Origin: a virus
DNA: 29,714 nt
IMG/VR virus record: IMGVR_UViG_3300031749_000028
Span: 1-29,714 of that record
Reading direction: 5' to 3' (one strand)
The notes under the pieces are model-generated. The model was not told the origin of the DNA. It did no database searches and saw only the letters and a list, made by a program, of their open reading frames with translations. Positions within the stretch are counted from its first letter, which is position 1. Each line of letters starts with the position of its first letter. Shown here piece after piece: positions 8,024 to 22,029 of the stretch. Both the position numbers and the translations under genes were made by a program.

Positions 8024-9135
8024 CTAAAGAAATTCACGAGCTTAGAAATAAAGAAGAAGATTTAACCAAGGCCTTGGCTGGCCGTGAGGCCAAAGAGGCT
8101 GAATTAAAAGAGACTATTGATAAAATTCAAAAAAGGCTTGATGAGCTCGAGGTTAATCGCAAAAGGCTGAATTTAGACCTTAAGAATGAGAAGGCCATTG
8201 AGTTTAAAAAAGCTCTGAATCAATACATTAAGACAGGGAAATGGCCGGCTGAACTTGAGGTTAAGGTTCTTCAAGAAGGAACTGGCGCCTCTGGTGGTTA
8301 TCTCGTCGCTCCCGAATATGCGCAGGAAATTATCGCCGGTATTCGGGAAATTTCTCCCATGCGACAGCTGGTCAGGGTCATGGCTACGAATACGAATAGG
8401 GTTTATTGGCCAATTAAGAGCGGAACCACCTCGGCGGCCTTCGTGACTGAAACAGGCACTCGTTCAGAAAGGACCTGGTCAACCCCTCTGGGCCAAAAGG
8501 CTATCGATATTTACGAGGCTTATCACAGAGTCGACGTGACGAACTGGCTGATTGAAGACGCTTTTGCCGATGCCGAGGCGTTCGTCAGAGAAGAAATTGT
8601 TGAAGCCTTTGCAGCTCTTGAGGGAAACAAAATCCTTCTCGGCACCGGTTCATCTGAACCTTATGGAATTACCGTTGAACTCGATACAAATAACGTTGTC
8701 CAGCTCGCTTCGGTCGGGACAGTAACTGCCGATGAAATCAAAACCGCATATTTCAAAATTAAGAGCGTTTATGCAAAAAATGGAACTTGGCTTTTCAACA
8801 GAAATACGATGCTGGTTTTTTCGCTGTTAAAAGATGATTATGGCCGCTATCTTTTGCAACAGCTCGCTGAAGGACCCGAGTGGGTGCTGATGGGTGCTCC
8901 TGTCGTTGAAGCTCCAGACCTGTCTAATATCGGAAACAACACGGACATTTTTGCCCTCTTTGGCGATTACAAGCGAGCTTATATTTTGATGGAACGGCTC
9001 GATATGACTCTGCTAAGAGACCCCTTCTCTTCAGCTAATACTGGCTCAATCGTGATTCATGCCCGCAAGCGCTGGGGTGGTCGCATGGTTCTTCCTGAGG
9101 CTGTTGCTGCGCTGAAGAATAAGAGCTCGACCTAA
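7999..9135 (+). CDS. Major capsid protein, HK97 fold, with N-terminal delta domain
   Basis: Predicted product of 378 residues. Residues 1 to about 85 form a highly charged coiled coil, as expected of the delta (scaffold-like) domain that the prohead protease removes. The body begins near EGTGASGGYLVAPEYAQEI, the usual start of the mature HK97-type protein. It continues through a GTGSSEPYGI segment in the A-domain region and ends ARKRWGGRMVLPEAVAAL. Cleavage likely falls between about residues 80 and 100, by family analogy. It overlaps the protease gene, and a strong hairpin follows it, typical for the most abundantly made virion protein. Confidence 0.94.
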   Translation: MDERLEVLTKEIHELRNKEEDLTKALAGREAKEAELKETIDKIQKRLDELEVNRKRLNLDLKNEKAIEFKKALNQYIKTGKWPAELEVKVLQEGTGASGGYLVAPEYAQEIIAGIREISPMRQLVRVMATNTNRVYWPIKSGTTSAAFVTETGTRSERTWSTPLGQKAIDIYEAYHRVDVTNWLIEDAFADAEAFVREEIVEAFAALEGNKILLGTGSSEPYGITVELDTNNVVQLASVGTVTADEIKTAYFKIKSVYAKNGTWLFNRNTMLVFSLLKDDYGRYLLQQLAEGPEWVLMGAPVVEAPDLSNIGNNTDIFALFGDYKRAYILMERLDMTLLRDPFSSANTGSIVIHARKRWGGRMVLPEAVAALKNKSST

Positions 9136-12549: not shown

Positions 12550-12824
12550 TTAACTGGGGACCTTTAATAGGTTCGTCCGAGGAAATAGAGGCTTTGCCAG
12601 ATGACCATCCGTTAAAAAATGAGCCGGAGCCGAGAATAGAGGAGCTAATGCTAATCAAATTGGCAATGCCGCTGATATCAGATATGGGAATTAACTCCGG
12701 GATGCTAAAAGAGTTTATCGACCAGGCCGGAGAAACTTTGGCGGAAAAAATAATCATATTGGAGAAACTGAATATTATGCGCCAGACAATCGAAAAAATG
12801 GCGGCTGAAAAAATGAGGGCATAA
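12516..12824 (+). CDS. Tail assembly chaperone, frameshifted extension (lambda T-like part of GT)
   Basis: This is the -1 frame half of the chaperone pair, read as a fusion with residues 1-111 of the upstream gene to give about 213 residues. It adds 102 residues. It begins LEEFKRTLSLLINWGPLIGS and ends in a helical segment. No start codon with an SD lies near its beginning (first ATG 12594, no clear SD), which supports expression by frameshift only. TAA and ATG of the tape measure gene overlap as TAATG. In lambda the T part binds the tape measure and recruits tube subunits. Confidence 0.82.
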   Translation, partial: LEEFKRTLSLLINWGPLIGSSEEIEALPDDHPLKNEPEPRIEELMLIKLAMPLISDMGINSGMLKEFIDQAGETLAEKIIILEKLNIMRQTIEKMAAEKMRA

Positions 12825-15016
12825 TGGCTGATATCAAATATATCGTCGAGGTTGATACAAAAACAGCACAGGCTTCGATTAAGGAATTTAACGGCGAAAT
12901 TCAAAAAAGCGCCGAATCATTAAAATCAGCCGGTGAAACAGCGACAGAATCTGGTAGCAAATTTAGCGGACTGTGGAAGCAGATTGCTGGGGGAATTCTG
13001 GCTGTTGAGGCTCTTAGAAAAGGATTCCACGAGCTAACTCAATTTGTGGGGGATAGCATTAAGGAGGCGGCTGAAGCGGAAAGAGCGAATCGTTCGCTTG
13101 AAGCGGCGCTCGCTACGACCGGAAGAACAGTTGAGCCCTTAAAAAATCACTTTATTGCTCTCGCCGAAGCAATTCAAAAGGAAACGATATATAATGATGA
13201 TGCGGTAAAAGGCGCCACAACGCTCTTACTTCAATTAACCAACCTTGACCGCCAGGGGATAGAAGCGGCTACAAAAGGAGCGGTTGGCCTCGCCTCTACC
13301 CTTAAAATGGACCTCCAAACGGCGGCTTTGCTTGTGGCCAAGGCGATGGAAGGGAATACAGGGGCGCTAACTCGATATGGCATTAGAGTTTCCGAAAATT
13401 TGCCTCTTGAAGAAAAAAGGCGTCAATTTCTCGAGCAATTATTGGCTCTATATGAGCGAGCCAAAACAGAAACAGAAACCTTTTCTGGCGCTCAAATGCA
13501 ACTAAAAAACTCTTTTGATGATTTGAAAAAAACGATAGGTGAAAACATAATCAAAAATGAAACCTTAAGAAATGCTATAAAAGATTTGAAAGAGTGGGTC
13601 GATAAACTTGCTGAATCTGAGAATTTCAAACTCTGGCTTAGCGCTCTAATTGAGTTGCTCGAAAAGATGACCACAACAGTAGGAAAAGTTACAAGCGCAG
13701 TGGCTAAATTTGGGGAAACAGTAGGAACGTGGATAGCAACTAAAGGAAGAGCTAAAAAAGCCAATGAGGAATATGCCGAATCCTTCATAATTCTTCGGGA
13801 GGCGATTGAGAGAGCAAGAGCGGCTGGACATGACCATGTGGACCGACTGGAAAGGATTAAAGAGGCTTATGAAAAATCGAAACCTGCGATAAATGAAACG
13901 GGGCGAGCTATTGAGAAAATAACCGAAGCGGTTAAAGAAAAAGTAAAAATTACACAGACGGCTATTCCTTTGTGGAATCAATATGCCAGTGTAATGAAAA
14001 ATTGGAGAGTACTCGTAGAAGGCGAGGTGTTGCCAGCAGCAAGAAATCTAAAAGACCTTATTGACCACACCATAACACCTCAGCAGTTATATTATTGGCA
14101 GGACCATTTTGAGCAATATGTGCCTCCAGTTCAAAAAACGACTTCTGAGATTAAAAATTATTTTGATGGCCTTTTCAATGATATTGCCACTGGGTTAGGA
14201 AATCTTATTCAAAAATGGCTTGAGGGCGGCTTAACTTTGAAGAATTTTATGAAGGGAATTTGGGAAAAAATTAAGCAAGCCTTTTTCCGGATGCTTGGAG
14301 AAATGATTGCCACCGAGCTAATCAAAAAGCTCAAGGATGTTCTTTCATCTGCCCTTGATATCGGAAAATCTTTATCATCGGCGGTTTCATCGGCCGCTCA
14401 TGCGGCCACGTCCGTTGCTTCAAGCGTAAGTTCTTCTATCGCCGCCTTCAGCTCGTTATCGATGGCCCTGGGCGGCCTTGGTGGAATTGCGAATTTTGCC
14501 GCTTCAATTTTTAATTGGCTTAAAGGGCCTGAAAAGCATACCGACGTTACCTTTTGGCTTAAACTTATCAAAGATAATTCTCAAATCGTCGTTAATTATC
14601 TTTCAGCCGATTATCTTAATTTGACCAAGGGCATATTCGAAAAACTTGAGGCAATTAATGATGAGGCCTTGAGCTATCAAAATCGATTGCTTGAAGATAT
14701 ATCAGGTTTTGCTGCTGAAATAAGGGAGGCGGCTTATGGCGTTTGGGGTGTGCTGAAGGGGACAAAGAAAGCTCAATTTGGATTCGAGGGCATTGTTACC
14801 AGGCCGACGCTTTTTATGGCAGGTGAAGCGGGGCCGGAACGGGTTGTTATCCAGCCGATACAGGGTGGAAATCAGGTTTCCCAGAGCTTTGTCTTCAATA
14901 TATATGCTTCTGAAACAAATATTGTTGAAGTGATAAAAAAGAAAATCGTGCCAGAGCTGAGCCGCCTGATGCGCTCTGAAGCCTTTTTGGTTCATCCTAA
15001 GTCAGTGAGGGCTTAA
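12824..15016 (+). CDS. Tail tape measure protein
   Basis: Predicted product of 730 residues, the longest helical tail protein here. The N-terminus (MADIKYIVEVDTKTAQASIK) and the following helical segment with MEGNTGALTRYGI are typical of tape measure proteins. Its middle is rich in Lys, Glu and Ala. A hydrophobic Ala/Ser-rich stretch at about residues 510-560 may be a membrane-interacting segment. The end carries FGFEGIVTRPTLFMAGEAGPERVVI, a frequent tape-measure C-terminal motif. By the usual rule of about 1.5 angstrom per residue, the tail would be on the order of 100 nm. Confidence 0.92.
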   Translation: MADIKYIVEVDTKTAQASIKEFNGEIQKSAESLKSAGETATESGSKFSGLWKQIAGGILAVEALRKGFHELTQFVGDSIKEAAEAERANRSLEAALATTGRTVEPLKNHFIALAEAIQKETIYNDDAVKGATTLLLQLTNLDRQGIEAATKGAVGLASTLKMDLQTAALLVAKAMEGNTGALTRYGIRVSENLPLEEKRRQFLEQLLALYERAKTETETFSGAQMQLKNSFDDLKKTIGENIIKNETLRNAIKDLKEWVDKLAESENFKLWLSALIELLEKMTTTVGKVTSAVAKFGETVGTWIATKGRAKKANEEYAESFIILREAIERARAAGHDHVDRLERIKEAYEKSKPAINETGRAIEKITEAVKEKVKITQTAIPLWNQYASVMKNWRVLVEGEVLPAARNLKDLIDHTITPQQLYYWQDHFEQYVPPVQKTTSEIKNYFDGLFNDIATGLGNLIQKWLEGGLTLKNFMKGIWEKIKQAFFRMLGEMIATELIKKLKDVLSSALDIGKSLSSAVSSAAHAATSVASSVSSSIAAFSSLSMALGGLGGIANFAASIFNWLKGPEKHTDVTFWLKLIKDNSQIVVNYLSADYLNLTKGIFEKLEAINDEALSYQNRLLEDISGFAAEIREAAYGVWGVLKGTKKAQFGFEGIVTRPTLFMAGEAGPERVVIQPIQGGNQVSQSFVFNIYASETNIVEVIKKKIVPELSRLMRSEAFLVHPKSVRA

Positions 15017-15017
15017 A

Positions 15018-15761
15018 ATGGCATGCCGATTTCTTTATACGAACATTTGGGATGTGGGAACAATTACCGCAGCCACCGAAGCTTCAGGCTATCCCGGGTC
15101 TAATACCCAGCATCGATGGCATCTAAAGAGTTGGCGGTCAATGACAATAACTCAGGACCAATGGGTTAAATCAACGCTTGACTCTCAAAAATCGGCCCAA
15201 GCGGTAGTCATTTTTGCGAATAATTTAGATTTAATAAGTTCAGATAAAAAATTATATTTCCAAGGGAGTAATGATAACTTCTCTTCAGTTCCGCTTAATT
15301 TAGCCTGGCAGTCTCCATCATATTGTCAGGTTCAATTTTTTAATCAGCAAAGCTATCAATATTATAGGGTATATATTTTGGCCAATAGCTCAAGACAATC
15401 ATTTTTTAGCATTGGTAGAATATTTTGTGGCACTTATTTTGAGCCTCAAAGATATTTTGCTGACCGCAGTATAAAACTTATCGACCCGAGCCCAATTCAT
15501 TATTCAGAGTCAGGGCAGATTGTTACGTTGCTAAAAACAAAATACCGAGAGATGACTTATACTTTTTTTGTTAATGATAGTGATAAGGCCGGGTTTGAAT
15601 TATTATATCAAAAGGTCGGTAACTGGAAAGAATTTTTCTTCTGTGAAGATACATCTAACCCCAATAACACAACCTATTATGTGCGAATTGCTGGTTTTTC
15701 GATGCGCCAGATTCATAAAAATTATTGGGAAATTCAAATTACGCTTGAGCAACTGAGATGA
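15018..15761 (+). CDS. Distal tail (Dit-like) protein
   Basis: Predicted product of 247 residues directly after the tape measure, where the distal tail hub protein lies. The N-terminal ~150 residues look like a beta-sandwich of the galactose-binding/discoidin type, with SDKKLYFQGSNDNFSS and YYRVYILANSS. The C-terminal part (TLLKTKYREMTYTFFVN, then YYVRIAGFSMRQIHKNYWEIQITLEQL) resembles the strand-rich belt domain of Dit proteins. It would form the ring joining tube and tip; the sandwich may bind host glycans. It overlaps the hub gene by ATGA. Confidence 0.72.
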   Translation: MACRFLYTNIWDVGTITAATEASGYPGSNTQHRWHLKSWRSMTITQDQWVKSTLDSQKSAQAVVIFANNLDLISSDKKLYFQGSNDNFSSVPLNLAWQSPSYCQVQFFNQQSYQYYRVYILANSSRQSFFSIGRIFCGTYFEPQRYFADRSIKLIDPSPIHYSESGQIVTLLKTKYREMTYTFFVNDSDKAGFELLYQKVGNWKEFFFCEDTSNPNNTTYYVRIAGFSMRQIHKNYWEIQITLEQLR

Positions 15762-17983
15762 CCTGGAATGTAGATGTCGACCGGCTTATTATTGCCGAGC
15801 TTTATCTTGCCGAGGAAATTAATCTAAGACCCTGGGTGCAGACAGCCGGTCAAATATATACTTTTCAAACGGCAATTTCTGACCTCAACTTTTCAGAAAT
15901 AAGCTCGATTCGTGAAATCAAGGAGAATGGGTCTTCTTATGCGGCCAAATCTTCAATCGCTGAGGTTGAAGCCACGGCTTCATCCTATTACGTCGATTAT
16001 AATAACAAACAATTATATGTTCATACCTCAACCGGTGAATCGCCATCGACGCAGGTTTCGAGCGAATATAAATTTTGCATTCTCATGTTTTTCTGGATGG
16101 GCCTCGCTTCAGGCTTACGGGAGGATGGGGAATCAGCTTTCCCGATTCAGGGAAATTCAAGCAATGTTTTTTATCAACCAATAATTAAAGAGCCGCCCGA
16201 ACTAACGCTTGCTGTAGGCGAATATCACTCGGGGGCAATGCGAGCAGATATGGGTGAGCTTAAGCTCGTCCCTTCTCAATGGCTTCTTTTGGCCCTTAAA
16301 AAATGGATTTTCGAAGGGAAAGAAATAATTGTTAAGGTGGCGAAACCCGGAGATTCTTATTCTTCACTCCAGATCGTTTCGAGAGGCTATATAAAAAACA
16401 TATCAAAAAAAGAGGATGGAATTTCACTGGAAATTGAAGATAGGCGAAATATAGAGCTTGGAGATATTCCGCCCCAAACCTTTTCTCTCTTAACTTATCC
16501 GAATATGGAGGCCCGCTATGACGGCCAGCCAATTCCGATTCCATTTGGACAGGTTGAAAATATCATCCCGATTTTAATCAATTCTTCAACCAGGCGGTAT
16601 AAGGTTTCGCCTTATGCTATTGATTCGTTTCTTTGGGTCAAAAAGGACGGGAATCTATTAACACCAGAGGTTGATTATACGGCATATCCTGATTCCGGAG
16701 AATTTACCTTGGCAGCCGACCCCGGAAACTCCCTTATTACATGCGGAGTCAAAGGTATAAAGATTTCTTATTTTGGTGGGACCGCGGCCTTTTCGGAAAA
16801 TGTGGCAAATGTTTTATATTTCATTTTGACTACGCTTTGCGGGATTGATTCATCTAATCTTGACCAGTCTTCTTTTAATGCCCTTCAATCGGCCCGAACC
16901 CAACAATTATCGTGGTGGTTTGCTCCATCTCAAAAACAACCGGCCACCGAGGCAATAAGGCGAATGATGGCAACATTTCTTTTTCATCTCGTTGCCAGGC
17001 CGGATGGGAAATATTATGTCAAATATTTCGAGCCGGGGGAAACCGGATCCACCGAATTTAAAACAGAAGATATAATTAAATTGGACGATTTCAGGGAAGA
17101 TTATGATTCAATTTATTCTTCCGTTGTCATTCTTTACGATTTCAACCCCCAGACCGGTGAATGGAAAAGAATAGAAAAATCAGACCCAAAAACTGAATAT
17201 CGATATAAAAAGAAAAACAGCCTGGTCATAGAGAGCTTGTTGCGAGATTCGGCAGAGGCCGAAGCCCTGGCTGAAAAATATCTGAAAATGTACCGCAATC
17301 CCGTTCGCAGATTAAATTTATCACTTCAGCCACTGGCCTATGACCTGAAGCCGGCGGATAAAATCAAAATATCAAAGTTGATTTATCCAGAAGGAACGCC
17401 TCTATATCTTCTGGAGAATGCTGTGTATATAATTTTAGAATCGAGAATAAATTTCGCCAATCCTTTTGCCGAAATTCAAGCCATTGATTTAAGCCAGGCG
17501 GCGGGCGCCGTTCATTCCGATGTCGTCCATAAAGACTCGCACGGGGATTCGCATTCCGATGTGGCTCATGGAGATGTGGCTCATGGAGATGAAACTTATA
17601 ACGATTATAATGATACACCTCATTCCGATTCGCATTCCGATTCGCATTCAGACCAAGCTCATCAAGATATTCCCCACGAAGATTCCCATGAGGATTCGGC
17701 TCATTTAGACTATACGCACAGTGACCACGACGATCATTATGATGACCCTCTATATGACGATTGGAACGATTATGTCCATGATGATGTGGCCCATACAGAC
17801 TCATATGCCGACAGCCATACAGATTCGCCCCACCTGGATTCACATGAAGATTCATATTCCGACGTTGCCCATGAAGATGTCTCCCATACAGATTATTCAG
17901 ATTCGCCCCATTCAGATACGTCCCATGAAGATTCTCATTCTGATTCTCATTCTGATACTCCGCATATTGACTCGTGGTATTGA
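15758..17983 (+). CDS. Tail tip/hub protein with C-terminal aromatic-x-Asp repeat domain
   Basis: Predicted product of 741 residues. Residues 1 to about 580 look like a baseplate hub/tail-associated protein: beta-rich, with an ALAEKYLKMYRNPVRRLNLSLQPLAYDLKPADKI-type segment (quoted in part) common in hub domains, and located after Dit. Residues 586-741 are entirely different. About 35 copies of [H/Y/W]-x-D are spaced 4 or 5 residues apart, typically HSDS, HEDS or HGDVA, with no Cys and only one Lys, ending HIDSWY. This domain is strongly acidic and His-rich. The radical SAM gene begins 10 bases after the stop, so the domain is its obvious candidate substrate; metal binding is an alternative role. 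Confidence 0.85.
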   Translation: MTWNVDVDRLIIAELYLAEEINLRPWVQTAGQIYTFQTAISDLNFSEISSIREIKENGSSYAAKSSIAEVEATASSYYVDYNNKQLYVHTSTGESPSTQVSSEYKFCILMFFWMGLASGLREDGESAFPIQGNSSNVFYQPIIKEPPELTLAVGEYHSGAMRADMGELKLVPSQWLLLALKKWIFEGKEIIVKVAKPGDSYSSLQIVSRGYIKNISKKEDGISLEIEDRRNIELGDIPPQTFSLLTYPNMEARYDGQPIPIPFGQVENIIPILINSSTRRYKVSPYAIDSFLWVKKDGNLLTPEVDYTAYPDSGEFTLAADPGNSLITCGVKGIKISYFGGTAAFSENVANVLYFILTTLCGIDSSNLDQSSFNALQSARTQQLSWWFAPSQKQPATEAIRRMMATFLFHLVARPDGKYYVKYFEPGETGSTEFKTEDIIKLDDFREDYDSIYSSVVILYDFNPQTGEWKRIEKSDPKTEYRYKKKNSLVIESLLRDSAEAEALAEKYLKMYRNPVRRLNLSLQPLAYDLKPADKIKISKLIYPEGTPLYLLENAVYIILESRINFANPFAEIQAIDLSQAAGAVHSDVVHKDSHGDSHSDVAHGDVAHGDETYNDYNDTPHSDSHSDSHSDQAHQDIPHEDSHEDSAHLDYTHSDHDDHYDDPLYDDWNDYVHDDVAHTDSYADSHTDSPHLDSHEDSYSDVAHEDVSHTDYSDSPHSDTSHEDSHSDSHSDTPHIDSWY
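17513..17980 (+). repeat. Coding repeat array for aromatic-x-Asp units
   Basis: About 468 bases encode the [HYW]-x-D repeats. At the DNA level the units are variants of CAT-NNN-GAT/GAC-(TCG/GTG), with short perfect duplications. For example, GATGTGGCTCATGGA is repeated in tandem near 17559-17589, and CATTCCGATTCG recurs at 17631-17648. Units alternate between 12 and 15 bases, so the array can grow or shrink by slippage without losing frame. The spread of third-base differences indicates that most units are old rather than freshly copied. Confidence 0.9.
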
Positions 17984-17992
17984 GGAGATGGC

Positions 17993-19144
17993 ATGATTAG
18001 CATTAAGCCAATCGAGTGTAATGGATATTGTGCCTCATGTTATGAGGCGAAAATTAGGGAAACTGGATTTTACCCACGATTTGATTTTTGTGCGCTGAAA
18101 GAAGCTCTAAAGAAATTAATTGAACAGTTAAAACCAGATTCAGAGGTTCCGTGTCTTCACGGTGGCGAGCCCTTATTAATTCCCAAAAATCAGCTTGAGG
18201 AGCTTCTGCGGATTGTATATCAAAGGTTCGGCCGAACCTCAATTCAGACCAATGGATTATTGATAGATGATGACCATATAGAGCTTTTCAAGAAGTATAA
18301 AACGGCGGTCGGAATTAGTCTTGATGGGGACACGCCTGAGCTTAATTATGGTCGGTTAAACGCTCTGAATTTATCGCCTGAGAAAAGAATTGAATTAACC
18401 TTAAGGGTTATAAAAAATATAGCGAAATTGAGGGATGCTAACGTTAACATTTCAATTATCTGCTTATTGCGAAGGTATAATGCCTTGCCCGATAAAATTC
18501 CCGAATTGCTACGATTTTTATTTAGATTAAGAGATGAATTTGGCATTTTCTCGGTCAGGCTAAATGAAGCTATTGTATATGATGAAAAATTGCGCCCTCA
18601 AGAGGAGCTGACGGGTAAGGAATTAGGCCAGGCCTGGATTGTTATATATGAGGCAATGAAAACGGATTGCCGGTTTGATTGGAGGCCGCCGCTTGATTTT
18701 GTAAATAAGCTGTTGGGAAAACCGGCTGTATGCGTCCTGAATCAATGCGATGTCTGGTCAACTGCGGCTGAGGTCTGTATTATAGGGGATGGCTCATTGG
18801 GTTGCTGTCTTCACGGCGGGGCGGCGATTGATGGGATTCAAGCCCTAAGAGCCGAAAAATCCGGGGTTGAAAGATATGAGATTTTGCCTCAAATTCCCCA
18901 GGATGAAGGTGGTTGTCAAGGCTGCCATTTTTGGCTCTATTGTTATGGCGGGTGTCCCGGGGCTGGAATCGATAACGACTGGCGAAATAAGACAAGGTTT
19001 TGCGAAGGCTATAAGATGCTATATGAGCATATATTAAGCGACTCGATTTTTAGGCTCAAGATGATTGAGGGCAAGGCCGAATCAATACAGACCGGCCATC
19101 AAGATTGGCATGGAGACAGACCTCATGGAGACCATAGCGATTAA
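17993..19144 (+). CDS. Radical SAM/SPASM peptide maturase with His-x-Asp tail
   Basis: Predicted product of 383 residues; ATG 17993 follows AGGAG. The radical SAM [4Fe-4S] motif C9-x3-C13-x2-C16 is at the N-terminus, with the SAM-binding G57-G58-E59 (LHGGEPLL) and ISLDGDTPELNYGR. The C-terminal SPASM-type auxiliary-cluster region has C308, C311, C317, C321 and C337 (GCQGCHFWLYCYGGCP...FCEGYK), plus earlier candidate ligands in CVLNQC and GCCLHGG. SPASM proteins mostly modify ribosomal peptides or proteins. The last 16 residues (368-383) are GHQDWHGDRPHGDHSD, the same repeat type as in the hub protein just upstream. The reaction is not known; cross-linking or epimerisation of the hub repeats is inferred. 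Confidence 0.92.
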   Translation: MISIKPIECNGYCASCYEAKIRETGFYPRFDFCALKEALKKLIEQLKPDSEVPCLHGGEPLLIPKNQLEELLRIVYQRFGRTSIQTNGLLIDDDHIELFKKYKTAVGISLDGDTPELNYGRLNALNLSPEKRIELTLRVIKNIAKLRDANVNISIICLLRRYNALPDKIPELLRFLFRLRDEFGIFSVRLNEAIVYDEKLRPQEELTGKELGQAWIVIYEAMKTDCRFDWRPPLDFVNKLLGKPAVCVLNQCDVWSTAAEVCIIGDGSLGCCLHGGAAIDGIQALRAEKSGVERYEILPQIPQDEGGCQGCHFWLYCYGGCPGAGIDNDWRNKTRFCEGYKMLYEHILSDSIFRLKMIEGKAESIQTGHQDWHGDRPHGDHSD

Positions 19145-19973
19145 AGTCGGAAATTATTATCGGATTGTTTGGCTATCCCAAAAGGCCAAAAATGCCTGGG
19201 CGGGCGTATTAGCAGATTTGAGCCGAGATATTTTTGCGCTTGAAATAGAAACAGTCAAACGAGGACTTAGGCCGGCAAGCTGGCAAACCGTCGATGAAAA
19301 ACAATATCTGGGTCTGGCCAGGGCCTGGGTTGATGATGGGCTTGTTTCGCTTCCGGTCAGATATTCCCGGAAATGCGACGGCTTTGCTCATTATCATGAA
19401 GAGCCGAAATTGGGGGAGGCTAAGAATATATCAGTCATAATTAGCAAGGACATTGCCATAGCCAGAGAATTTGTCGGAGCATATGAACGGGGAGACCATG
19501 ATACACAAGGGAAACTTCTTGGCTATCCCGAATGCTGTCGCAAGGCCTTTGCCGAAAGATGGCAGGCCGGATATTTTGACCCAATATGGCAGGCGGCAGA
19601 AGCGACACCAGCGGAGCGAGTAATGAAAAAATCAGAAACCAAAATATGGCTTGTTCCCCATGCTTTCTCAAATCCGATATTACGTTATGCCGGGATTCGG
19701 GTCTCATTTCATATTCCCTGCTCCTTTGCCTGTGAGAACTCAATAGAGATGGCTCAAAAATATTTTGATATTTACCGCCTGATTTCTCCTAATTATCCCT
19801 TAATGGAAGCTCTGTTGAGAATGCCGGTAAGCTGGGATTGCTATCACGGATTAGCGGTAATAAAAACACCAATATTTTATCTCATCATTGGTTCTGTTCC
19901 CGCAAAGAAAAAATATATCGTGGAATGCGATGGCGATTTTATTCCAAAAGAGGGGATAAAATGTTTCTCTTAA
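19125..19973 (+). CDS. LGYPxCC/HxPCxxxC protein, candidate partner of the radical SAM enzyme
   Basis: Predicted product of 282 residues from ATG 19125; GGAG at 19112-19115 lies nine bases upstream, inside the codons for the HGD repeats of the radical SAM tail. ATG 19110 is an in-frame alternative. Two motifs stand out: LGYPECCRKAF (132-142) and SFHIPCSFAC (H196, C199, C203). Together the four Cys and His could hold a metal or Fe-S cluster. The LGYPxCC...HxPCs combination resembles DUF483-like proteins of unknown function, from memory. The 20-base overlap with the radical SAM gene implies coupled synthesis and a shared task. Confidence 0.8.
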   Translation: METIAIKVGNYYRIVWLSQKAKNAWAGVLADLSRDIFALEIETVKRGLRPASWQTVDEKQYLGLARAWVDDGLVSLPVRYSRKCDGFAHYHEEPKLGEAKNISVIISKDIAIAREFVGAYERGDHDTQGKLLGYPECCRKAFAERWQAGYFDPIWQAAEATPAERVMKKSETKIWLVPHAFSNPILRYAGIRVSFHIPCSFACENSIEMAQKYFDIYRLISPNYPLMEALLRMPVSWDCYHGLAVIKTPIFYLIIGSVPAKKKYIVECDGDFIPKEGIKCFS

Positions 19974-20452
19974 AAGCCGATTTTGAAAAAGAAATTAAAA
20001 GAATTAACAGCTTGCTTAACCGTATATTAAGGAGCCATGAGGCTAAGGTTAGGGCCTATCTCGGTTCAAGCCAATTAAATATTCCCAATGCTACCTGGAC
20101 AAGGATTAAATTAAATACTGTATTTTACGATACCAAAGGCGGCTTTGATACCGCTAATAATTATTATGTCATTCCGGTTTCTGGTTTTTACCTTGCTGTT
20201 GCCCGTGTAACATGGGCTAATATCCAGGCGGGACGATATATTGTTTCTATTAATGATGGTTCAGATAGAACTATTCATGAAGACCAACTTTCGACAGTGA
20301 ATAATTATATAGCCTTTAGCTTTTCAGACATTCTTTTTTTGAACAAAGGGAGCAATGTGGCCTTATATGCATATCAAAATACAGGGGGAAATACCCCGGG
20401 GATCCTTGCGGGAATAGCAAGAACTTTTTTGGCTTTATTATTAATTGAATGA
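19961..20452 (+). CDS. C1q/TNF-like tail fibre or receptor-binding protein
   Basis: Predicted product of 163 residues from ATG 19961, after AGGGG, overlapping the previous stop by 13 bases. Residues 1 to about 30 are a helical coil (FEKEIKRINSLLNRILRS), fit for trimerisation. The rest is a jelly-roll with C1q-like features: TWTRIKLNTVFYDTKGGFD, YYVIPVSGFYLAVARVTW, GRYIVSIND, IAFSFSDILFLNKGSNVALYAYQN and a hydrophobic end. C1q-like trimers serve as receptor-binding heads in many phages. Position after the tail tip fits this. Direct receptor data cannot be had from the sequence. Confidence 0.75.
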   Translation: MFLLKADFEKEIKRINSLLNRILRSHEAKVRAYLGSSQLNIPNATWTRIKLNTVFYDTKGGFDTANNYYVIPVSGFYLAVARVTWANIQAGRYIVSINDGSDRTIHEDQLSTVNNYIAFSFSDILFLNKGSNVALYAYQNTGGNTPGILAGIARTFLALLLIE

Positions 20453-20623: not shown

Positions 20624-20779
20624 TTGGCGGAAAACATAATCAAACAAGCTCAGGATGAATATTTTAGAACACTCACTTTAGTGATGAAAGAATTGGGAAT
20701 ACCAGAGGAAGAATTTTCCCAATGGAAGCTGGAGGAAGATAAATTTGTTAAGCAAGAATTGGAAAAAGAACAAAAATGA
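20624..20779 (+). CDS. Small acidic helical protein, start uncertain
   Basis: The frame is open from a stop at 20591 to TGA 20777-20779, which overlaps the next ATG as ATGA, arguing for translational coupling. From TTG 20624 it gives 51 residues, highly charged and helical, ending EEDKFVKQELEKEQK. CTG 20594, preceded by AGGA at 20579-20582, or ATG 20684 are alternative starts. No family is recognised. It was probably missed by standard gene finders because it lacks an early ATG. Confidence 0.45.
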   Translation: MAENIIKQAQDEYFRTLTLVMKELGIPEEEFSQWKLEEDKFVKQELEKEQK

Positions 20780-22029
20780 ATATCCGGAAATGGCTCTGTA
20801 AAATATTCAAAAGTAGGCTGATTGCGAGCTTGCTTAACTGCGACCGATATAAACCAAAACCTCCAAAACCACCAGAACCGCCAGAGCCAAAGCCAATAAA
20901 AATCAAGGTTCAAGTCTGTAAGGAATCGGGCCTAATTCCTAACCCTTATTGTCCTGAAGTGATTGAAGAGGAGTTTGAGATTGGAGATGAGCCGCGAGAG
21001 GTATGCTCAATTCATCATGCACCAGAGCCAAAGTTTAAGCGCTATGTTTTTGCCGCTGATATCATGACTGCTGAGGGTGATTGGAAAAATTTTCTTCGGC
21101 AATGCGCTGAGGCTAAAGCTGATGGTATAAGGATGTTCGCTGTGTATGGGTGGTTTGGAAATGTTTCAAGCCCCTGGAAACAGATTGGCACCTGGCATGC
21201 GGATTATGACGACGCCCCAGAATTGCCCTTTTATGACCTGCGGCAATATGATGAAAAATGGTGGCAAAAATTCAGAGAAATTCTTTGCTATTGCCGGGGC
21301 CTTAGTCTTGAGGTTATTATTTCTCTCGATGATTTTTGCTCATTAAAATTAGACGGATGGGAAAAATATTGGCATCCGGTTTTATCATCAGCCCCGGACA
21401 GAGATATGAAAAATCCAGGTGTTAACCGTTTTCCTAATGGCTATTGGGGGATAGGTGATAATACGATTGAACCGTTTCTGAAAATATATAGAAAAGATAT
21501 AATTTCGGAAATACAAAAAACTGGCGTCAAATATTGGATTGAGACGATGAATGAATATGATGCTCTCGATTGGCCTGATGATTATATGATTATGTGGCAT
21601 GATAGAGTCGTTCGGGAGCTTATCGATTATGGTGTGCCAAGAGAGAGAATAATCGCCTCACCCGGGCGATGTTGGCAAAATATCGCTGGCCAGGTGGGAA
21701 TCCTTTCGATTCATTGCGTAGTGAAAGACTGGCAAGTGCCAGACCTGCCCTGGCCCCATGATAGGGTGATGATTTCGGGAGATGGGGGATATGATGGCTC
21801 TGGAAGAGCGAACCAAAAGGGCGGCCGGGGGCTGGGCCTCAAAGACGTCCCAGCGCTGGCAAAAAGGTTAAAAGAGCTCGGTTATTATGCCTATGAATAT
21901 ATGGACCAAGGGATGTATTTTAAGGATGACAATCGAGCTAACCTTGATGATTTTGACCCCGAGCCACTAATCGCCCTATATGAAAATTCCTTCCATCCTA
22001 CTGGAAGCGAAAGGAGAAAAAATGAATAA
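20776..22029 (+). CDS. Tail-associated TIM-barrel glycosidase-like protein with PBP-type C-x-SG module
   Basis: Predicted product of 417 residues. Residues 26-40 are a proline/lysine-rich linker. Residues 48-80 read C48-KESG-x-IPN-x-YCP...EIGDEP...C77-SIHH. This matches the small Cys-containing module found at the C-terminus of class A penicillin-binding proteins. From about residue 88 a (beta/alpha)8-barrel-like domain follows. WIETMNEY (N259-E260) looks like the clan GH-A acid/base Asn-Glu, and a late YAYEYMDQG could hold the nucleophile. It may degrade host capsule, exopolysaccharide or wall glycans at the tail tip. Substrate and activity are inferred. Confidence 0.72.
   Translation: MNIRKWLCKIFKSRLIASLLNCDRYKPKPPKPPEPPEPKPIKIKVQVCKESGLIPNPYCPEVIEEEFEIGDEPREVCSIHHAPEPKFKRYVFAADIMTAEGDWKNFLRQCAEAKADGIRMFAVYGWFGNVSSPWKQIGTWHADYDDAPELPFYDLRQYDEKWWQKFREILCYCRGLSLEVIISLDDFCSLKLDGWEKYWHPVLSSAPDRDMKNPGVNRFPNGYWGIGDNTIEPFLKIYRKDIISEIQKTGVKYWIETMNEYDALDWPDDYMIMWHDRVVRELIDYGVPRERIIASPGRCWQNIAGQVGILSIHCVVKDWQVPDLPWPHDRVMISGDGGYDGSGRANQKGGRGLGLKDVPALAKRLKELGYYAYEYMDQGMYFKDDNRANLDDFDPEPLIALYENSFHPTGSERRKNE

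Follow-up and report, generated by a model that had tools for sequence, protein, structure and literature searches.

A phage radical SAM enzyme carries at its C-terminus a short run of His-x-Asp (H-x-D) units like those that form a long array in the protein encoded directly upstream. Judging from sequence comparison, this tail is a functional element of the enzyme that selection maintains, because dozens of related viruses retain both the repeats and the tail, and the enzyme probably modifies viral tail fibres. It is encoded in a 29,714-nt stretch of viral DNA (IMG/VR record IMGVR_UViG_3300031749_000028; hereafter, the window), within a module that comprises a tail-hub/fibre array protein, the enzyme and a DUF483 protein, all encoded together.

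Results

The enzyme ORF (17993-19144, + strand) specifies 383 amino acids, and its final 16 codons (19094-19141, + strand; stop codon 19142-19144) specify residues 368-383, GHQDWHGDRPHGDHSD. These residues comprise HQD, HGD, HGD and HSD, whereas the other 367 residues include no H-x-D at all, and none of 300,000 random 16-mers of the enzyme's own composition had four such units. The suggestion in the initial annotation that the last 16 residues repeat the H-x-D unit of the upstream protein is thus confirmed. In the AF2 model of the enzyme, residues 368-383 are the sole stretch with pLDDT below 50, coinciding exactly with the tail, which is therefore predicted to be a floppy, disordered segment.

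The remainder of the protein is a radical SAM/SPASM enzyme (PF04055, 5e-14). The three cysteines of its CxxxCxxC cluster motif (C9, C13, C16) are invariant in 62 relatives, and the cysteines of the SPASM region (C247, C252, C272, C308, C311, C317, C321, C337) contain the two-auxiliary-cluster pattern CX9-15GX4C ... CX2CX5CX3C ... C, with C252/G267/C272, C308/C311/C317/C321 and C337 invariant across the 62 sequences. A model built with these 62 sequences (pLDDT 90.3, pTM 0.88) replaced an earlier one from 23 sequences that was too weak (pLDDT 66). Its closest solved fold is the sulfatase maturase anSME (4k38, Z 28.9 over 329 residues), followed by ChlB (9gm3, Z 28.6), and the profile match to anSME is 6.5e-28; the enzyme is thus predicted to have the fold of a known SPASM protein/peptide maturase. 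It reaches none of the curated NCBIfam maturase cut-offs: it scores 74.8 bits against the anSME model TIGR03942 (cut-off 349), and among models of cyclophane maturases 63.6 bits for YhhB (445), 41.1 for GrrM/OscB (310), 38.9 for XyeB (450) and 73.9 for DynA (450). The enzyme also differs from anSME at the position following an auxiliary-cluster Cys, where anSME has D277, which we take to be its catalytic base; most members of the window family have Gly there, and the window enzyme has Leu. We saw no sulfatase nearby. One match from a faecal contig (L005), which looks like an ordinary sulfatase maturase adjoining a sulfatase, was excluded.

A single-sequence search of viral contigs yielded no relatives of the enzyme; alignment-based searches succeeded. 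Relatives in Thermus phages were found with tblastn, as were those on two haloarchaeal plasmids, and alignment-guided scans added about 90 loci from viruses and a few from bacteria. Grouped at 85% identity, these relatives form 68 family clusters. At least two H-x-D units follow the SPASM domain in 50 of the 68, as opposed to none of 67 unrelated radical SAM proteins that came out of the same scan (Fisher 5e-22, computed without correction for ancestry). The tail is kept across enzymes that are only ~35% identical, usually with a core consensus of its own, H-G-D-H-[T/W]-D, and the enzymes of the cultured phages Cumys, phiMa and phiLo all end in H-x-D tails. In 201 pairs from 57 sequences, which are not independent but give a large contrast, tail His and Asp residues changed in 8.1% of comparisons, compared with 43% for the linkers, 46% for the spacer and 24% for the enzyme core, while synonymous change was ordinary (36% at tail H/D codons, 34% in the core). 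The His and Asp residues of the tail are therefore under purifying selection. Conservation of the tail in related enzymes was the check that the initial annotation had proposed for a functional tail; its outcome is positive, and together with the selection on His and Asp it supports that reading. In one record with a tandem pair of radical SAM genes (L318/L324), the first has 12 H-x-D units in its final 120 residues, arranged as repeated RPHGDHTD modules.

On a phylogeny from which the tail was left out, its presence or absence takes 7 changes, as against 16 with shuffled labels. All five members of the window's clade have a tail, and none of the six bacterial chromosomal members does; the haloarchaeal members likewise go without. 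The tail is an accessory part of the enzyme, because 18 of the 68 clusters lack it, about ten of them phage clusters with arrays. Tail-less homologues beside H-x-D proteins, the case that the initial annotation had named as telling against its reading, thus do occur in part: array proteins lie near the tail-less enzymes of L006, L009, L011, L013, L019, L138, L141, L146, L150 and L157, so the tail is unnecessary for the partnership of enzyme and array.

The same annotation had offered a second explanation, in which the tail is what remains of a repeat array that was there before the enzyme gene was inserted. An array does lie directly upstream, and tail and array have CATGGAGA words in common, with array copies at 17567-17574 and 17582-17589, so that the resemblance to bases at about 17574-17590 that had been pointed out is real. 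It adds no independent evidence, however, because shared amino acids and codon usage account for it: the best local DNA alignment of tail to array scores 13, codon-resampled tails average 13.4 and 69% of them reach 13, so the tail DNA resembles the array no more than the encoded amino acids require. Nor does the array resume 3' of the enzyme gene. The middle residue (X2) is Gly in 134 of 234 tail units but in 292 of 1832 array units, and the third (X3) is Asn in 6 of 226 tail units but in 213 of 1751 array units; in most genomes with arrays that are 40-64% H-x-N, the tails consist almost wholly of H-x-D units, for the most part H-G-D. Tail composition does not track that of the neighbouring array (Spearman 0.07, p 0.62). 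An origin as leftover array is contradicted by the selection on the tail, by its distinct X2 and Asn content and by its spread over the tree, and we regard it as highly improbable.

The tail might instead be a by-product of the DUF483 start site, since both tail copies of CATGGAGAC fall within the start region of that gene, providing the GGAGA (19112-19116) of a ribosome-binding site and the ATG at 19125. This reading is contradicted by loci that have the tail without the overlap. The enzyme gene of Cumys and phiMa (L002/L003), which have a like tail, ends at 8245 and DUF483 starts at 8247, and tails persist where DUF483 begins 330-440 nt downstream (L016, L024, L045). We consider an origin by overlap to have almost no likelihood.

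The protein encoded upstream (15758-17983, + strand) is probably a tail hub or tail-tip protein, because its N-terminal part matches phrog_8917 (1.3e-28) and its gene is the second after that for the tape measure protein (12824-15016, + strand; phrog_58, 3.7e-18). The array proteins of L134 and L137 share the phrog_8917 match; the hub protein itself is not significantly similar in sequence to any solved structure. At its C-terminus, 156 residues (17513-17980, + strand) form an Omega-x-D array of 28 HxD, 7 YxD and 1 WxD, the likely substrate of the enzyme. Across arrays, Asp or Asn stands at +2 from His in 95% of cases, over a background of 24%, and among the residues tested only Phe, Tyr and Trp also show raised D/N at +2 (33-39%, versus 4-8% for Ala, Ser, Thr, Gly, Pro and Val). 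Array units are H-x-[D/N], sometimes F-x-N or Y-x-D, and the array of L009 is mainly F-x-N. X3 is Asp, Asn or, rarely, Glu or His, all of which are metal ligands; the array at L136:12805-13200 alternates H-x-H with H-x-D, and that at L161:5081-7264 includes H-x-E units.

Enzyme and array are linked in both directions. An array lies within 300 nt upstream of the enzyme gene in 46 of 65 clusters and farther upstream in 11 more, and none of 67 control radical SAM proteins has an array nearby. In the converse search, 80 pattern-matched loci were sorted before the enzyme was searched for; of the 21 that a script marked as arrays, 12 were judged by eye to be irregular and fibre-like, the others being simple or out-of-frame repeats. 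The enzyme was present in all 12 records with fibre-like arrays (five already known, seven new) and in none of the seven simple-repeat records searched, and in six of the seven new records it has a tail. We conclude that the arrays are very probably the substrate of the enzyme. Arrays of at least 20 units accompany 44 of 48 tail-bearing enzymes and 5 of 15 tail-less ones, a link that weakens once common ancestry is taken into account (5 independent pairs, median p 0.6).

The third member of the module, a DUF483 protein (19125-19973, + strand; PF04467, 1.4e-6), has its start codon within the tail codons of the enzyme. DUF483 is found in 53 of the 54 clusters with more than 3 kb of downstream sequence, and does not depend on the tail (17 of 17 tail-less enzymes have it). 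DUF483 proteins have no comparable H-x-D runs, and comparison of the window's DUF483 sequence with solved structures gave no significant match. In phiLo, the DUF483 gene sits next to that of the enzyme; three large array genes (phiLo_135-137) are found on the opposite strand, at a distance of several kb. In the marine clade L016-L032, a protein of ~120 aa between the two genes (L024:9329-9685, L032:9327-9704) has two HADHVDxTGxY motifs, the motif of that clade's own enzyme tail (HADHTDETGRY). Bacterial chromosomal versions (L059, L064, L055-L057) resemble a RiPP cluster, in which a tail-less fusion of rSAM and DUF483 is accompanied by small H-x-D peptides (69-87 aa in L059). The trio of array fibre, enzyme and DUF483 also occurs on a haloarchaeal plasmid (L191:3329-6489) that carries a baseplate J gene.

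Discussion

The module has been described before in part. The report on Cumys presents the trio as an rSAM, a DUF483 and an unknown protein and proposes that it modifies DNA (PMC11437467); the passage of that report describing the 'rSAM module' mentions neither repeats nor tail (PMC11437467). As in the window, the Cumys and phiMa modules have the trio in the order array protein (Cumys_13, with an H-x-D array), rSAM and DUF483, and the Cumys enzyme likewise has an H-x-D tail, SPEHGDYTDHGDAPHGDHWDG. In favour of DNA as the target, that report points to homologues in cyanobacteria that lie close to deazapurine genes (PMC11437467). Against this stand the reciprocal linkage of the enzyme to H-x-D arrays and its nearest folds, anSME and ChlB, which act on peptides or proteins, and we consider modification of DNA by the rSAM/DUF483 pair very unlikely.

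The chemistry may well be a cyclophane-type cross-link, a proposal that we hold at about even confidence because the aromatic-x-[D/N] shape of the motif matches the substrates of three-residue cyclophane enzymes. The substrate motif of those enzymes is Omega1-X2-X3, with precedents for Tyr-Asp, Trp-Asp/Asn, Phe-Asn, His-Ala and His-Arg (PMC11002830). As with the triceptide maturases (XncB, OscB, YxdB, HaaB, YhhB) and the dynobactin enzyme DynA, an rSAM/SPASM protein here adjoins an Omega-x-[D/N] protein rich in such motifs, and DynA aligns with the window enzyme over residues 4-347. The window enzyme differs from all of these in lying far below the curated cut-offs and in its H-G-D tail, and its candidate substrates are large virion proteins of about 10-100 units rather than short leader peptides. 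In the open-access literature, we found no earlier report of a phage with a cyclophane or with His-Xaa-Asp.

We propose that the enzyme acts on the arrays of tail-fibre and tail-hub proteins, where it most likely links the residue-1 aromatic ring with the residue-3 side chain of each Omega-x-[D/N] unit. The tail would hold the enzyme on the long array by pairing of like repeats, directly or through a bound metal, and this retention would allow tens of sites to be modified. Our tentative reading, which we place slightly short of an even chance, is that a phage maturase of such arrays has in its tail a built-in mimic of the substrate, conserved and disordered; that the tail serves as a docking or tether element is plausible, at somewhat less than even confidence. 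Several findings count against this reading: the tail does not track array composition, as would be expected of a simple copy of the enzyme's own substrate; there are 18 tail-less clusters, some ten of them from phages with arrays; the link between tail and longer arrays weakens with ancestry considered; the X3 residues are all metal ligands; and no curated maturase cut-off is reached. The broadest form of the proposal, that tens of radical-SAM-made His-x-Asp or Phe-x-Asn cross-links strengthen the tail fibres or hubs of many bacterial tailed phages and of some haloarchaeal elements, and that a substrate-mimic tail makes the phage maturase processive, is speculative and on balance doubtful.

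A close rival is that the enzyme cross-links the H-G-D units of its own tail, for activation, shut-off or attachment to the virion. The tail units obey the Omega-x-D grammar, the selected positions are His and Asp, the constancy of the H-G-D consensus might reflect a sequence preference of the enzyme, and the predicted disorder of the C-terminus suggests that it could reach an active site. The existence of bacterial and haloarchaeal members without a tail argues against self-modification, which we consider unlikely. Alternatively, tail and arrays may be H/D segments that are sticky or bind metal; the tail would then bind either metal or an unvarying partner, for instance DUF483, and the chemistry would be other than a His-Asp cross-link. 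Metal binding stays under consideration because the X3 residues are all metal ligands, and this reading would also fit an HGDH[T/W]D consensus that is fixed independently of the array, the mixture of H-x-H and H-x-D in L136, the near-constant presence of DUF483 and the marine-clade neighbour with its HADHxDxTGxY motif in two copies. F-x-N and Y-x-D units, and above all the mainly F-x-N array of L009, would nonetheless make poor metal sites, and DUF483 is equally frequent with tail-less enzymes; we judge this alternative rather unlikely.

A radical SAM maturase devoted to a structural component of the virion, with as many as ~100 candidate sites in each protein, would bring RiPP-style chemistry to phage tail assembly, and the tail offers a handle on the standing question of how maturases recognise repetitive substrates that have no leader. 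The cultured Thermus phages phiMa, Cumys and phiLo bear the module, so the idea is testable by mass spectrometry.

Three further genes of the window merit mention. The product of 20776-22029 (417 aa) looks by eye like a glycoside hydrolase and has no Pfam match; that of 19979-20452 is a C1q-like virion protein (PF00386, 0.00085, below cut-off; phrog_13989); and that of 2032-2808 has an N-terminal hydrophobic stretch and a GDSGG motif, like a trypsin-type protease.
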